A stretch of DNA of 64,000 bases, taken from the NCBI RefSeq assembly GCF_009827655.1, contig NZ_WTYV01000009.1:62001-126000 (forward strand), in the 5' to 3' direction. Every line of letters starts with the position of its first letter. Within the stretch, counting starts at the first letter, position 1. This document shows, in pieces, positions 58,103-63,770 of this stretch. A program made the translations under genes and the position numbers. Below the pieces are notes generated by a model. It saw nothing but the letters and a program-made list of their open reading frames with translations. It was not told the DNA's origin and made no database searches. Source of the stretch: Alteraurantiacibacter buctensis. GTDB lineage: Bacteria; Pseudomonadota; Alphaproteobacteria; Sphingomonadales; Sphingomonadaceae.

Positions 58103-60427
58103 ATGCCTGAAGGCAAGGAACGCATGGGCGCCACGGAGCGCATCAGCCACGCCACCTGGGCGGGCCTGGTGGCGCTTGTCCTGTCGATATCCACGGTCCT
58201 GCTGCCGCTCGACGAAATGACCTGGATGCTGCAGTCGCGCATCGCCAACTTCCCGGTTTCCGGCGACATTGTCTACATCGGCTCGGTCGACGACCTGACC
58301 GACCCTGACGAGCCGGAGCGCCGCGTGGAGCTGGCCGAGGCGCTGGATTCGCTCCGCCAAACAGGAGTGGACCAGGTCTACGTCGACCTGGCCTTTTCGC
58401 GTCCATCGCGAGCTTTGGCAGACCAACGACTGAACCAGGCCCTGCTCGCCTTCAACGGTCGCGCCTTTCTGGTGCGAACCGCCACCGACGATGCCAGCGG
58501 CAGACCGGCGTTTTTGGAAAACGTGCCTGCAGTGGGTATCGGTATTCCTCAGGTAAGCACCTATCGCTGGCGCAATTTCATGGGCTACACTTGGGAGTTG
58601 CGGGAAACCAATCGGGCGTTGGAAGAGCAATTGCCGTCGCTCCACGTCGCACTTGCAGGGCGCAGCACCGGGCGCGAACGCAACCAAATCTTCTATGGTT
58701 TCGATCGCAGCTCAATTCCTACCTACCGGCTCGAAAATATTACGCACGGCACCGGGCCGTTGGGTGCGCGCACCATTCCAGTGGAGGAACTGCGCGGCAA
58801 GAAAGTAGTGATTGGCTATTTCGAGCGCAGCGATGGCCAGGTCTTCAAGATTCCCGGCCACCAAGGCGTTCCCGCCACCTTCATCGACATATACGGTGCG
58901 GAAACGCTGAAGGCCGGCTTCACGCGCTCAGTCAGCAGTTGGACCGGGGCGCTAGTGATGCTGCTGGGCCTGATCCTGCTGGTGCGGGTGCCGCGCCGCC
59001 GCGTGCGCTATGCAGGCTATGCTCTTTTGGCTCTGGCACTGCCCGTGGCAACGCTGGTTGGCGCGCAGACCGCGGTTCCGGTCAGTCTGTCCGGTGCCCT
59101 CGTCCTGCTCGGCATGTTCTCGATCCTGCGCCTGCGATCTCTATGGCAACAGACCTTGCGCCTGATCGATCCGGAAACCCGCTTGCCCACCTTTGCCGCG
59201 ATGGAAACCGCCAGCGACCTGGTGGACGGATCGCAGGCCATTATCGTCGCGCGCATCCACCGGTTCGAGGAAGTGCGCCGCACCCTGCCCAAGGAACTGC
59301 ACGCCGAATACATGCTGCGGCTGATCGCGCGGCTGAAGGCGGCCAAGCGCGATGCGGTGATCTATGCCGGGCCGGGGCACCTGATCGCCTGGACCTTCCC
59401 CGAGAAGGAACCGGCGCTGGTGCGTGAGCATCTTGAGGGCCTGCGGGCCCTGTTCTCGTCACCGCTGCTGGTGGGCGACAACCAGGTGGACGTGCGTATC
59501 ACCTTTGGCGTGGACATCACCCCCAGCCCCAACGTCGCCCGTCGCCTGGCGGCGGCGATCGACGCCGCCGAACGCACCACCGAGACCTACGAGCCCATCG
59601 TCATCGCCGAATCGACCAGCGACGAGGACCTGATCTGGAACATCTCGCTCCAGGCGCGGATCGATGCGGCGCTGGCCAATGGCGAGATCTACATGATCTA
59701 CCAGCCCAAGGTGCTGGTGCAGACCGGCGAGATCGTAGGCGTGGAATCGCTGGTGCGCTGGCGCGACCCCGTGAAGGGCCTGATCCCGCCGGACAGCTTC
59801 ATCCGCCAGTGCGAGAACGCCGGACGGATGGGCCACCTGACCCGCCACGCGCTGACTGAGGCGTGCCAGGCGGGCAACCGCTTTGCCGAGGCCGGGCTGC
59901 ATATCCCGGTGGCGGTCAACATCTCATCTACCCTGGTCCACGAACCGCAGATCGTCGCCATGGTCAGCGAAGTGCTGCACGGGACCGGCTTCGATCCCCG
60001 CCGGCTGACGCTGGAGATCACCGAGACCTACCGCATCTCGGACTTCGACCGCGCGGCCGAGGTGCTGGGCGACCTGGCAGCCCTTGGCCCCAAGATCTCG
60101 ATGGACGATTTCGGCGTCGGTGCCGCCAGCCTGGAAGCGCTGCAGCGCCTGCCGTTTGGCGAACTCAAGATCGACCGCCTGTTCATCGCCGCGATGAAGG
60201 ACGATGCCAAGGCCTACGCAATCGTCCGTAACGTGCTGCAAATGGGCAAGGATCTGCGAATCATCGTGGTGGCCGAAGGGGTCGAAAACGCAGCTACGTT
60301 AACCAAATTACGCGATGCGGGGTGCCTTGTGGCCCAGGGATTCGGCATTTCCCGGCCCGTTCCATTCGATGAAATCCTGCAATTCCAGAAGCTTAGACCT
60401 GAAGACCGATTAACAAAGATGGTTTAG
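58103..60427 (+). CDS. CHASE2-GGDEF(degenerate)-EAL c-di-GMP phosphodiesterase
   Basis: A 774-residue membrane sensor protein. The N-terminal CHASE2 domain (residues 30-270) lies between helix LVALVLSISTVLLPL and the helical region GALVMLLGLILLVRVPRRRVRYAGYALLALALPVATLVGAQ. The GGDEF-like region (about 355-500) has GPGHL where GGDEF would be, so it is probably not a cyclase. The EAL domain carries ESL at residues 548-550, VAVNIS, ITET, DDFGVGAASLEAL, KIDRLF and a final VAQGFG, i.e. the catalytic set. The likely activity is breakdown of c-di-GMP in response to periplasmic signals. Start at 58103. Confidence 0.9.
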   Translation: MPEGKERMGATERISHATWAGLVALVLSISTVLLPLDEMTWMLQSRIANFPVSGDIVYIGSVDDLTDPDEPERRVELAEALDSLRQTGVDQVYVDLAFSRPSRALADQRLNQALLAFNGRAFLVRTATDDASGRPAFLENVPAVGIGIPQVSTYRWRNFMGYTWELRETNRALEEQLPSLHVALAGRSTGRERNQIFYGFDRSSIPTYRLENITHGTGPLGARTIPVEELRGKKVVIGYFERSDGQVFKIPGHQGVPATFIDIYGAETLKAGFTRSVSSWTGALVMLLGLILLVRVPRRRVRYAGYALLALALPVATLVGAQTAVPVSLSGALVLLGMFSILRLRSLWQQTLRLIDPETRLPTFAAMETASDLVDGSQAIIVARIHRFEEVRRTLPKELHAEYMLRLIARLKAAKRDAVIYAGPGHLIAWTFPEKEPALVREHLEGLRALFSSPLLVGDNQVDVRITFGVDITPSPNVARRLAAAIDAAERTTETYEPIVIAESTSDEDLIWNISLQARIDAALANGEIYMIYQPKVLVQTGEIVGVESLVRWRDPVKGLIPPDSFIRQCENAGRMGHLTRHALTEACQAGNRFAEAGLHIPVAVNISSTLVHEPQIVAMVSEVLHGTGFDPRRLTLEITETYRISDFDRAAEVLGDLAALGPKISMDDFGVGAASLEALQRLPFGELKIDRLFIAAMKDDAKAYAIVRNVLQMGKDLRIIVVAEGVENAATLTKLRDAGCLVAQGFGISRPVPFDEILQFQKLRPEDRLTKMV

Positions 60428-60429
60428 GC

Positions 60430-60458
60430 TTTACAAATAAGCTTGGTTAACAGATATG
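60430..60458 (+). promoter_or_regulatory. Promoter candidate for the micro-ORF (TTTACA-17 bp-GATATG)
   Basis: TTTACA (60430-60435) and GATATG (60453-60458) are separated by 17 bp. The -35-like box directly follows the stop of the EAL gene, and the predicted start is about 20 bp before the micro-ORF Shine-Dalgarno. The -10 is weak. Confidence 0.4.
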
Positions 60459-60486
60459 TAGTCCGTCTTAACTAAGGAGACGGACC

Positions 60487-60531
60487 ATGGGTCGCGGTTT
60501 TTGGGATTGGCTCCTGGGGGGCCGCGGTTAA
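60487..60531 (+). CDS. 14-residue micro-ORF (MGRGFWDWLLGGRG)
   Basis: An AAGGAGA Shine-Dalgarno (60474-60480) lies an ideal 6-7 nt before an ATG that opens 14 codons and a TAA, encoding MGRGFWDWLLGGRG. The peptide is amphipathic with two Trp residues in FWDWLL and glycines at both ends. A promoter candidate is upstream and an intrinsic terminator downstream (60559-60583), so the unit looks self-contained. The next gene on either side is in another transcript (engB is on the opposite strand). No homologue is known to me; if translated it is a new small protein. If not, the transcript could be a small RNA. Confidence 0.45.
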   Translation: MGRGFWDWLLGGRG

Positions 60532-60558
60532 TCCGCAAGCCTTTTTGTAAAATATGAG

Positions 60559-60583
60559 AGGGCACCTCCGGGTGCCCTTTTTT
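60559..60583 (+). terminator. Intrinsic terminator of the micro-ORF unit
   Basis: AGGGCACC (60559-60566) pairs with GGTGCCCT (60571-60578) around TCCG, an 8-bp stem followed by six T residues to 60583. It is also close to the engB stop on the other strand and may protect that end too. Confidence 0.75.
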
Positions 60584-60601
60584 ATTGCCTGAAACGCAGG
60601 C

Positions 60602-61276
60602 TCAGCCGCGCACGTCGGCCAGGATGGCGGCGCGCAGTTCGGCAATGCCCATCCCGTGTTCGGACGAGGTGACCGCAATCTGCGGGTGCGCGGCCACGTG
60701 GCGGCGGGCTTCCTGCACGGTCGCCTCGGTAACCTTGGCCAGCTCGCTCGCCTTGATCTTGTCGGCCTTGGTCAGCACCAGTCGATAACCCACGGCCGCT
60801 TCGTCGAGCATCTTCATCATCTCGCGGTCGCTGTCCTTCAGGCCGTGGCGCGAATCGACCAGCAGCATGGTGCGCTTCAGCGGCACCCGCCCGCGCAGGA
60901 AGCTGCGGACCAGCCCGCGCCACTTCTCGACCACCTTCAGCGGGGCCTTGGCAAAGCCGTAGCCCGGCATGTCGACCAGGCGGAACACCACCGGATCGCC
61001 CACGTCGAAGAAATTGAGTTCCTGCGTGCGGCCCGGCGTTACCGAGGCGCGGGCGATGGCCTTGCGGCCTGTCACCGCGTTGATCAGGCTGCTCTTGCCC
61101 ACGTTGGACCGGCCGGCAAAGGCGATCTCCGGAAAGTCCGGCGGGGGCAGGAACTGCAGTTGCGGGGCGGACAGCAGGAAGGTGACCGGGCCTGAAAACA
61201 GGCGCCGGGCTTCCTCCACCAGCTCCGCATCGGCGGGGCCGGCTTCGGGCGCTTTGTCGGGGGCGGAGCCGGTCAT
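60602..61276 (-). CDS. engB: Ribosome biogenesis GTP-binding protein EngB
   Basis: A 224-residue GTPase (YihA/YsxC) that aids large-subunit assembly. The G1 motif is AFAGRSNVGKSSLINAVTG, G2/T in TPGRTQELNFF, G3 is VDMPGYGFAKA, and G4 is LTKADKIK. The start ATG overlaps the yidC stop (ATGA), so translation is coupled. The N-terminal ~20 residues are acidic and variable. Confidence 0.96.
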   Translation of the reverse strand: MTGSAPDKAPEAGPADAELVEEARRLFSGPVTFLLSAPQLQFLPPPDFPEIAFAGRSNVGKSSLINAVTGRKAIARASVTPGRTQELNFFDVGDPVVFRLVDMPGYGFAKAPLKVVEKWRGLVRSFLRGRVPLKRTMLLVDSRHGLKDSDREMMKMLDEAAVGYRLVLTKADKIKASELAKVTEATVQEARRHVAAHPQIAVTSSEHGMGIAELRAAILADVRG

Positions 61277-63006
61277 CCCTTCTCCGGCGTGGCGGTCGCC
61301 ATCTGCGCCTTCAACTGCGGGTGGCGCGAATAGAGGTACTTCTGCTGCGCCAGCGTCAGGATGTTCGAGGTGATCCAGTAGATCAGCAGGCCCGCGGCGA
61401 ACGGGGCCATCACGAACATCATCATCCACGGCATGATCATGAAGACCTGCTGCTGCATCGGGTCCATGGCCGCCGGGTTCAGCTTGAACTGCAGCCACAT
61501 GGTCACGCCCAGCAGGATCGCCAGCGGGCCGATGGCGAGGAAGCTGGCGGGGGTGAAATCGAGCAGGCCGAACAGGTTCAGCACGTGCAGCGGATCGGGC
61601 GCGGACAGGTCCTTGATCCACGAATAGAACGGCTGGTGGCGCATCTCCACGGCCACCCGCAGCGCCTTGTACAGGGCAAAGAAGATCGGCATCTGCAGGA
61701 AGATCGGCAGGCAGCCCGCCAGCGGGTTGATCTTCTCTTCCTTGTACAGCCGCGCCATTTCCTGCTGCAGTTGCGGCTTGTCATCCTTGTAGCGTTCCTG
61801 CAGCGCCTTCATCTTGGGCTGCACAGCGCGCATCTGGGCCATCGAGGCGAACTGCTTGTTGGCGATGGGGAACATCACCAGCCGCACGATCAGCGTCAGG
61901 CAGATGATGGCCAGGCCGAAGTTGCCCACCAGGCCGAAGAGGAACAGCAGGAACTGTTCCATCGGCTTGACGATGAAGCGGAACCAGCCCCAGTCGATCG
62001 CCAGGCCGAAGCGCTCCACGCCCTGCGCCTCATAAGCGTTGAGCACGGCGCTTTCCTTGGCCCCCGCGAACAGGCGGGTGGTGCGCACCACCTTGCGCCC
62101 GGCGGGCACGTTGACCGCATCGTACAGCAGCACGGCGGCATACTTGTCCTGCCCCGCTTCGGAGAACGAGATCTGCGTATCGGCCCCGTTCTGCGGGATC
62201 AGGGCGGACATCCAGTAGATGTCGGTGAAGCCCACCCACCCCGGACGGCCCGGCAGGTTGAGCGGGCCGGCATTGTTGGCCTGCCGCTGGCGGGCCAGTT
62301 CCTCGCTCACTTCCTCGTAGTCCCAGTCGAAATCGACCGCGCCGTCGACGGCGGCAATGGGGCCGGAGTGGACGTTGAAGTTGCTGGGATCGGCGGTCAG
62401 GCTGGTGCGGTTGATCAGCGCGCGCGGGCGCAGGGCCACGGTGCCGGTGCCCAGGTTGCTGACCGCCTGCTCCACGGTGATCATGTAGTCTTCGTCGATG
62501 CGATAGGTCAGCTCGAACAGCTGGCCCTGGCCGTTGTTCCAGGAGAGCTTGACCGGCGTGGCCGGGGTCAGCGTGCCCCCGGCGCTGGTCCACAGGGTCT
62601 GCGGGCCGGGCACGGCCACGCCCTCGCCCACCCAGTCGAAGCGGGCAAAGTGCTGCTTGTCGGTGCCCAGCGGGGCCATGAACTGCACCGGGCCGCTGTC
62701 ACGCTCGATCGTCTCGCGGTGGTTGCGGAACTCGATATCGTCCACCCGTGCGCCGACCAGGTTGATCGAGCCTTCCAGTTCCGGCGCATCGATCTTCACG
62801 CGGCTCGGGCTGGCCAGCTCGGTCGCCAGGGTGCGCGTCACCTCGGCCTCGGCGGCGGGCGATTCCACGGTCTCCTGCGAGGTGACGGCGGCCTGGGCCA
62901 CCGGCACTTCCTCGGGCGGATACAGCTTCACCATGAGGAACTGCCAGCCCAGGAACAGGGCAAGGCTCAGCACGATGGCGAGGATGAGGTTACGCTGGTT
63001 GCTCAA
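61273..63006 (-). CDS. yidC: Membrane protein insertase YidC
   Basis: A 577-residue Oxa1/Alb3-type insertase. The first helix [21 protein letters not shown] is followed by a large periplasmic P1 domain (about 55-350) and the C-terminal helices with [54 protein letters not shown], the conserved cytoplasmic/hydrophobic core. It works with Sec or alone on small membrane proteins. It is downstream of yidD and upstream of engB. Confidence 0.97.
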   Translation of the reverse strand: [577 protein letters not shown]

Positions 63007-63057
63007 GTGAGATTCCCGTCCGGCAAGTCTGTGTTCCGTAGCCCCGGGCGGTGCCGT

Positions 63058-63267
63058 TCACGGTACGGGGTCATATCCGTGTCCCCCCCAAGGGTGGCAG
63101 CGCAATAGACGCTTGGCCGCCATCCATCCACCCCTGATTGCACCATGCTTCTCCAGCGCCTCGATGGCATAGGCGCTGCAGCTTGGCTGGTAGCGGCACG
63201 ATGGCGGCAATACCCGGCTGGGGCCAAGCTGCCAGGCCCGCGCGACCAGGATCAGCACCCGCTTCAC
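63058..63267 (-). CDS. yidD: Membrane protein insertion efficiency factor YidD
   Basis: A 69-residue small protein that assists YidC. The family signature is clear: W-Q-L...[53 protein letters not shown] with the two conserved Cys (PSC x4 PSC) and the HPWGGxGYDPVP end. Its start overlaps the rnpA stop (ATGA), so these two are translationally coupled. Confidence 0.95.
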
Positions 63268-63656
63268 CGGCCGTGCACCTTCGTGCCGACAGGTCGGCGC
63301 GGGCGGCTTTTCTCGCCCTTCCCTTCGCGCGCGGCGGCCAGGGCATAGCCCAGTTCCGCCTGCATCCGGGCAAAGTCCCGCTCGATCCCGCCTTCACGGC
63401 CGATCAGCACGTGGTCATGGTCGGGCAGGCCCAGGTCGGGCAGCGCGGCGCGCAGCAGTTCGCGGAAGCGGCGCTTCATGCGGTTGCGGACCACGGCGTT
63501 GCCGATCTTCTTGGTAACGGTGATGCCATAGCGCGTGCCCGCCCCGCCGTTGGGCCGGGTCAGCAGCACGAAACCGGGCCGCGCATTGCGCAGGCCCTGA
63601 TTCGCGGCGACGAAATCCGCGCGCTTGGTGAGAACGGTCAAATCCACGCTGGCCAT
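63264..63656 (-). CDS. rnpA: Ribonuclease P protein component
   Basis: A 130-residue protein subunit of RNase P, which binds the RNA and matures tRNA 5' ends. The conserved basic motif [23 protein letters not shown] (RNR region) is intact, with [13 protein letters not shown] near the N-terminus. The ATG at 63656 gives a normal length; upstream in-frame residues are irregular. It is downstream of rpmH past two hairpins and upstream of yidD. Confidence 0.95.
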
Positions 63657-63670
63657 TATAGGAACGAAAA

Positions 63671-63770
63671 CGGGCTGCGTTAAGCAGCCCGCAAGGCCAA
63701 ACGGCCGCCCGCAGCGCAGGTCAGCCTTGCTGACCGGGAGCGAGGATGTCACGCGCCCGGATGGGCGCGT
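63671..63770 (-). terminator. Two hairpins between rpmH and rnpA
   Basis: ACGCGCCC/GGGCGCGT (63751-63770) lies just after the rpmH stop, and CGGGCTGC/GCAGCCCG (63671-63691) sits 14 bp before the rnpA start with TTTTCG after it on the minus strand. They may be terminators, attenuators or processing stems setting the rpmH to rnpA ratio. Confidence 0.5.

Follow-up and report, generated by a model that had tools for sequence, protein, structure and literature searches.

A predicted microprotein family near-constantly paired with a predicted membrane c-di-GMP phosphodiesterase in Sphingomonadaceae

Directly behind a gene for a CHASE2-GGDEF-EAL protein of Alteraurantiacibacter buctensis lies a very short open reading frame with its own promoter-like block, ribosome-binding site and terminator-like hairpin. 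This raises the question whether the micro-ORF is a gene in its own right and, if so, what its product serves for. The window, i.e. the whole stretch of DNA that was analysed, comprises 64,000 nucleotides, and the positions of the relevant features are listed in Table 1. A first-pass annotation of the site had described a self-contained transcription unit for a free-standing very small protein or, alternatively, a small RNA with a spurious ORF. The EAL stop codon, the TTTACA motif, the strong Shine-Dalgarno (SD) sequence, the ORF and the hairpin with six T residues were all found where it had placed them. The ORF itself consists of ATG plus 13 codons and not of ATG plus 14, and a 9-bp leader hairpin overlapping the SD sequence had been missed. 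The observation as such is confirmed, and the earlier interpretation is partly supported.

Table 1. Features of the micro-ORF locus, given as positions in the window.
Feature	Position	Strand	Basis or remark
CHASE2 - degenerate GGDEF - EAL protein gene, 774 aa	58103..60427	+	stop at 60427; Pfam EAL 3e-60, CHASE2 2.4e-8
Conserved promoter/operator block (ATGGTTTA..TTTACAAA..GGTTAAC..)	60419..60458	+	leader conservation in the genus
TTTACA	60430-60435	+	read from sequence; 17-nt spacer to GATATG
GGTTAA	60445-60450	+	invariant in the own genus, 40/40 leaders
GATATG, weak -10 candidate	60453-60458	+	read from sequence
Leader hairpin overlapping the SD sequence, 9 bp	arms 60461-60469 / 60477-60485	+	single-sequence RNA folding vs shuffled upstream arms
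SD sequence AAGGAG, 7 nt 5' of ATG	60474-60479	+	read from sequence
Micro-ORF MGRGFWDWLLGGRG, 14 residues with Met	60487..60531; ATG 60487, TAA 60529-60531	+	selection and conservation
Rho-independent terminator-like hairpin	60559..60583; 8-bp hairpin 60559-60578, six T 60578-60583	possibly bidirectional	sequence and scans

Conservation of the reading frame was considered at first within the genus of the window. An SD-led ORF of 13-17 residues follows the EAL gene in 40 of 40 genomes, and its length differs by whole codons only. A recognisable peptide core, mostly [FI]WDWL[FL]GG, is present in 39 of these ORFs; four variants show VWDR in place of WDW, and three have Tyr for the first Trp. The sole member without the core (G028) reads MRDILNTIIGGSR and has lost Trp, and the unit remains. 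On the DNA level, a 171-base query matched the region (E < 0.01) in 23 of 37 own-genus genomes and in none of 24 genomes from other families of the order.

The comparison of synonymous and nonsynonymous changes that the first-pass annotation had proposed was carried out, and synonymous changes were favoured (pN/pS 0.224-0.243 in the own genus). The lower value was obtained over 10 core codons of 25 distinct own-genus sequences, for which the other two frames gave 0.86 and 1.92; none of 500 column shuffles reached it, the lowest being 0.293. For 39 distinct sequences, representing every own-genus genome except G028, which was left out because it has no core to align, pN/pS was 0.243 (other frames 0.96 and 1.64), again with 0/500 shuffles as low. 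Over the whole set of 63 distinct core sequences the ratio was 0.28, as against 0.75 and 0.72 in the other frames; the sequences of all these sets are related and not independent, but each contrast between frames is drawn within one and the same set. In addition, an SD-led ORF of 10-45 aa with the pattern [FILVMWYR]Wx[WYLV] occurred in 78 of 86 real regions, which had been picked as homologues, in 267 of 8600 dinucleotide shuffles and in 1 of 86 reverse complements. An SD-like sequence precedes each of the 86 curated members. Purifying selection on the amino acids, by which bacterial microproteins are recognised, was thus detected. Judged by these sequence comparisons, the micro-ORF is a protein-coding gene, and it is presumably translated. 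The free-standing very small protein of the first-pass annotation is borne out in this respect: the peptide frame is kept in the own genus and in other genera, so that the loss of the frame in relatives, which by that annotation would have spoken against it, was not observed.

Upstream of the micro-ORF, the EAL gene is its constant neighbour. When 46 distinct fragments from the upstream side of homologous loci were scored against the known EAL catalytic motifs, the ExLxR, E..E, DDFG-type, K and EGVE motifs were kept in 46/46, N in 45 and Q in 41, and the GGDEF signature was found in 0/46. By established domain knowledge, the combination of CHASE2, an EAL domain with kept catalytic-type motifs and a GGDEF domain lacking its signature leads to the prediction of a membrane c-di-GMP phosphodiesterase. 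A protein search detected the EAL gene in all 40 own-genus genomes. The N-terminal 466 residues of the protein matched 53 of 149 genomes of the family at E <= 1e-15, and at this threshold the gene was absent from the other 96. Of 118 genomes of the order, 23 matched at E <= 1e-8, all of them in the own family. At one place (G007:C3:114011-115407) the reading frame of the EAL gene is broken in two, due to a frameshift or an assembly error, with the micro-ORF intact behind it. A flagellar link was considered and dropped: in a cross-count made by hand from two tables for the same 149 genomes, flagellin genes were present in 33/53 genomes with the EAL gene and in 66/96 without it, and hence no commoner in the former.

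How closely do both genes belong together outside the own genus? A pattern search of 298 family genomes matched 102, ordinary genes included, and after the matches had been sorted by eye for frame, 13 other-genus genomes with the same kind of micro-ORF were obtained; the EAL gene lies directly upstream in 13/13. Candidates L074-L078 and L082 from this search were dropped since no homologue was found, L077 being only a 7-aa ORF without EAL gene. As choice by motif was to be avoided, a search starting from the enzyme was adopted, and a micro-ORF was found behind the EAL gene in 48 of 50 sampled other-genus genomes. Among these 48 members, 40 contain WxW, four [WY]x[WY] and four isolated Trp only. 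The ORFs comprise 11-38 residues, mostly with the core [FI]W[DE]W[LI][FL]GG, and the start codon lies 48-187 nt past the EAL stop, where measured. The exception is the micro-ORF of G180 (MGWFWRFLGGGGTDSAGGQA), which is displaced by an insertion and begins 1066 nt from the EAL stop; between the EAL stop (at 319 of locus L099) and the micro-ORF a transposase-like ORF was recognised by eye. A further other-genus member (G117) has kept the leader and the unit, and its peptide has diverged to VIDLIAIALGSRRGS with loss of the Trp residues. G202 shows an EAL match without micro-ORF; this match is weak and may represent a paralogue. Secondary or weak CHASE2-EAL places (L144-L150, L220, L221) carried such an ORF in 0/9 cases.

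Searches that started from the peptide led to the same neighbour. A codon scan for FWDWL[FL]GG in 84,980 named species genomes yielded 23 stretches, 20 of which are micro-ORFs; the EAL gene is located upstream of 19 of them, and the 20th (L162) sits at the edge of its available stretch. The remaining three stretches sit in frames of 598, 738 and 72 codons. One of these 20 micro-ORFs (L157) belongs to a metagenome bin titled Rhodospirillales, in which it is paired with the EAL gene; its peptide equals the one of the family genome G136, and the bin is perhaps mislabelled or mixed. A profile of 24 members matched 21 of the 149 family genomes at E < 1e-3, and the EAL gene adjoined in 21/21. Since part of these loci had gone into the profile and many short forms escape it, the absence of unlinked copies holds only as far as its sensitivity reaches. 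At E 0.01-0.1 the matches include unlinked ones, for most of which the frame is 90-369 aa long and for one (G194) 35 aa. In the class-wide search with the profile, two of 289 genomes matched, both of the own genus. Plasmid copies were not accepted, as tblastn with one 23-aa member gave three matches with E values of 4 to 8, taken as chance. As far as searched, the microproteins do not extend beyond the Sphingomonadaceae (as defined by GTDB), to which the window belongs.

At one locus of the own genus (L218, genome G414) a second whole unit follows the first in tandem at 510-680, made up of a separate TTTACAA..GATTAACG block, a hairpin of CTCTCC/GGAGAG, an SD sequence, MRIWDWLFHRGTR and a separate terminator. 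No other second copy turned up within 600 nt among the 104 members, where the flank reaches that far. Duplication can take in the entire unit, and its parts are retained in either copy.

The unit is furnished with candidate control signals, among them a conserved TTTAC block. The distance from TTTAC to the ATG is 55-59 nt in 38 of 40 own-genus loci, and in 35 of 64 other members it is 53-70 nt; because of the spacing kept in the own genus, a promoter or operator at this block is likely. The first-pass annotation had proposed a TTTACA-17-GATATG promoter. Its TTTACA part stands as a conserved block, whereas GATATG is a poor -10 hexamer that agrees with TATAAT in three of six positions, and a consensus scan of the window from 59500 to 62000 reported no sigma-70-type promoter. 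The own genome contains the combination TTTACAAA-N5-8-GGTTAAY a single time, and a GGTTAA or TTAACC half-site was found in 82 of 86 leaders, where about 8 would be expected. The full CtrA site is described as TTAA-N7-TTAA (PMC8921679, as far as the source was available). It was found in 0/25 own-genus leaders, in which the TTAA spacings N19 (14/25) and N10 (8/25) are commoner, and in 7 of 61 other leaders against 0.4 expected. Membership in the CtrA regulon was not adopted, as the full site is absent in the own genus, and is kept as a lead because half-sites of the GGTTAA type are near-universal.

A leader hairpin overlapping the SD sequence was predicted in 39 of 40 own-genus leaders, where shuffling of the upstream arms gave an expectation of 24.0 (mean energy -10.2 vs -4.0 kcal/mol), and in 59 of 64 other members against 49.4 expected. 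Pairing of the SD sequence exceeded the shuffle mean in 76 of 86 leaders; in the window itself it is about level with the shuffles (0.59 vs 0.57). RNAalifold found neither a consensus structure nor pairs in the 40 own-genus leaders, and as the leader alignment thus gave no covarying pairs, the within-sequence shuffles were relied on. The hairpin is less certain than the ORF, its selection as a peptide, the linkage, the terminator and the conserved block, which stand out in the compared sequences. With a transcription start about 35 nt past TTTACA, the short transcript would lack part of the 5' arm. A terminator-like structure is present within 110 nt in 95 of 104 members, 40/40 in the own genus, as compared with 1-2 in shuffles. 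With a block and a terminator of its own the unit does look self-contained, as the first-pass annotation had stated, but it is not independent of its surroundings because it is tied to the upstream phosphodiesterase gene.

These observations are probably best explained by a lineage-specific microprotein that works with, and most likely on, the adjoining phosphodiesterase, although we hold this with some reserve. The micro-ORF and the upstream gene would form a two-gene module, in which the micro-ORF may be expressed from its own promoter-like block (TTTACAAA, GGTTAA) and regulated by the leader hairpin over the ribosome site. With this block, the hairpin and a separate terminator, the dose of the microprotein would probably be set apart from that of the enzyme. 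The aromatic core ([FI]W[DE]W[LI][FL]GG), which follows the basic tail in long members, would most likely bind the phosphodiesterase or the adjoining membrane, and candidate contacts on the enzyme would be the membrane, linker or degenerate GGDEF part. Such binding would tune the hydrolysis of c-di-GMP, in either direction. An enzyme modulator fits because the microprotein is fixed beside one enzyme and has its own transcription signals and a leader hairpin; adjacency of the genes is no proof that the two products touch. More tentatively, and short of an even chance in our estimation, the family of 11-38 residues may serve one membrane c-di-GMP phosphodiesterase as its dedicated subunit or switch, separately transcribed and gated by a hairpin, and thereby a layer of c-di-GMP control that has so far gone unrecognised.

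The family is found neither in the protein-family libraries nor in the literature searched. Pfam and NCBIfam gave 0 families each at E up to 10 for five long members of at least 20 aa, a length that the member of the window does not reach. Neither an FWDWL text nor a Sphingomonadaceae microprotein was found in a literature search with thin coverage of subscription papers and bioRxiv preprints. Genes of 11-17 codons fall below the usual size limit of annotation pipelines; to our knowledge, few of them are conserved past one genus, and the present family ranks among the shortest conserved bacterial genes. Small regulatory proteins such as AcrZ, MgtS and CydX bind to membrane enzymes or transporters and mostly consist of a single transmembrane helix with some 30 residues or more. 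The micro-ORF product resembles them as a very small protein kept beside, or acting on, one larger membrane protein, but its members of 11-38 aa include short forms too short for a membrane span, and they possess an aromatic-acidic-aromatic core. The partner gene belongs to the same class as the GGDEF-EAL hybrid phosphodiesterases of Alphaproteobacteria, for which control by a sensory input domain is usual; the accessible part of a survey of these hybrids does not mention a microprotein partner (PMC9756655). A microprotein kept over many genera of one family and tied to one orthologous enzyme offers a concrete, testable partner. If it does tune the phosphodiesterase, it would show a way in which control can be exerted on a c-di-GMP enzyme that has no known ligand; other signalling enzymes may then hide micro-subunits just past their stop codons.

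Among the other explanations, a free-acting peptide, be it membrane-active, toxin-like or a signal, that stands beside the EAL gene by shared ancestry and does not act on its product, is unlikely but deserves to be weighed. The Trp-rich core and the separate promoter block would suit it, as would the basic tail of long members: 35 of 104 members have at least 19 aa with a mean net charge of +2.3, and in long members a Lys/Arg-rich N-terminus is followed by an RGFWDWLFGG-like core. Type I toxins are hydrophobic membrane-spanning peptides with an antisense RNA, and the length of the short members seems insufficient for a span. Inherited neighbourhood is at odds with the linkage to the EAL gene in 48 of the 50 sampled other-genus genomes, while the gene on the other side, engB, was not found in the examined flanks of 13 other-genus loci; nor did an unlinked copy appear at E < 1e-3 or in the codon-pattern scan.

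Alternatively, translation of the ORF together with the terminator could stabilise or pace the EAL mRNA as a 3' end element, in which the peptide itself is of minor importance. No terminator was seen in the short gap between both genes, so the micro-ORF is probably also carried on the EAL mRNA by readthrough, and the two members that keep the unit without Trp core (G117, G028) would be in line with this. Selection acts at the level of the residues, however, and the duplicate of L218 has the same core although it lies farther from the EAL gene, and we regard such an element as improbable.

A small regulatory RNA of about 110 nt (promoter, hairpin, terminator) that acts by base-pairing and contains the ORF only incidentally would agree with the compactness of the unit, its end in a terminator, a leader hairpin above expectation and, again, the persistence of the unit in G117 and G028. 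It is very improbable all the same: the conserved and selected peptide frame disfavours the spurious ORF that the first-pass annotation had left as an alternative, with substitutions favouring synonymous positions and length shifting by whole codons, and the hairpin arms and loop vary among own-genus members. Rfam 15 gave no family at the gathering score in the window, and 11 homologous loci gave only an unrelated tRNA; the best match below threshold was Atu_C8 with 20.9 bits of the 50 required.

The first gene 3' of the unit, which we take to encode an engB/yihA-type GTPase, lies on the minus strand from 60602 onwards and is convergent. Of eight own-genus genomes inspected, seven have an engB-like gene as convergent neighbour, and none was seen in the examined flank of the eighth (G010). 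Directly 3' of the terminator the window has no evident gene on the same strand, as the first-pass annotation had noticed, and without such a structural gene its statement that this is no leader peptide of a known kind is upheld. We give hardly any credence to an attenuator leader, i.e. a Trp-sensing or arrest peptide, even though the peptide size, two Trp codons and a terminator directly behind recall one and the likewise 14-aa peTrpL of Sinorhizobium acts in trans (PMC7298713, as far as accessible), because a downstream gene to be regulated is missing, engB is convergent, the micro-ORF sits behind and not before its constant partner gene, and the Asp or Glu found between both Trp residues in 73 of 88 WxW members is not needed for Trp sensing. 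According to the accessible part of that source, peTrpL of S. meliloti is the attenuator leader of trpE(G), its RNA (rnTrpL) begins at the ATG, and termination yields a short RNA (PMC7298713). Both cases share a 14-aa Trp-containing peptide and a short terminated unit in an alphaproteobacterium, and homology is not claimed; unlike peTrpL as described there (PMC7298713), the micro-ORF is not associated with a trp operon, its leader contains an SD sequence and a hairpin, its peptide core is WDW, and its fixed neighbour codes for a predicted c-di-GMP phosphodiesterase.

The terminator hairpin was reported on the minus strand only in the consensus scan from 59500 to 62000, and its plus-strand form passes a separate terminator scan. 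Three genes follow in a row on the minus strand from 60602 to 63752, convergent with the micro-ORF unit; named from their sequences, these are presumably engB-like, yidC-like and rnpA-like genes, and this row perhaps shares the terminator with the micro-ORF unit.
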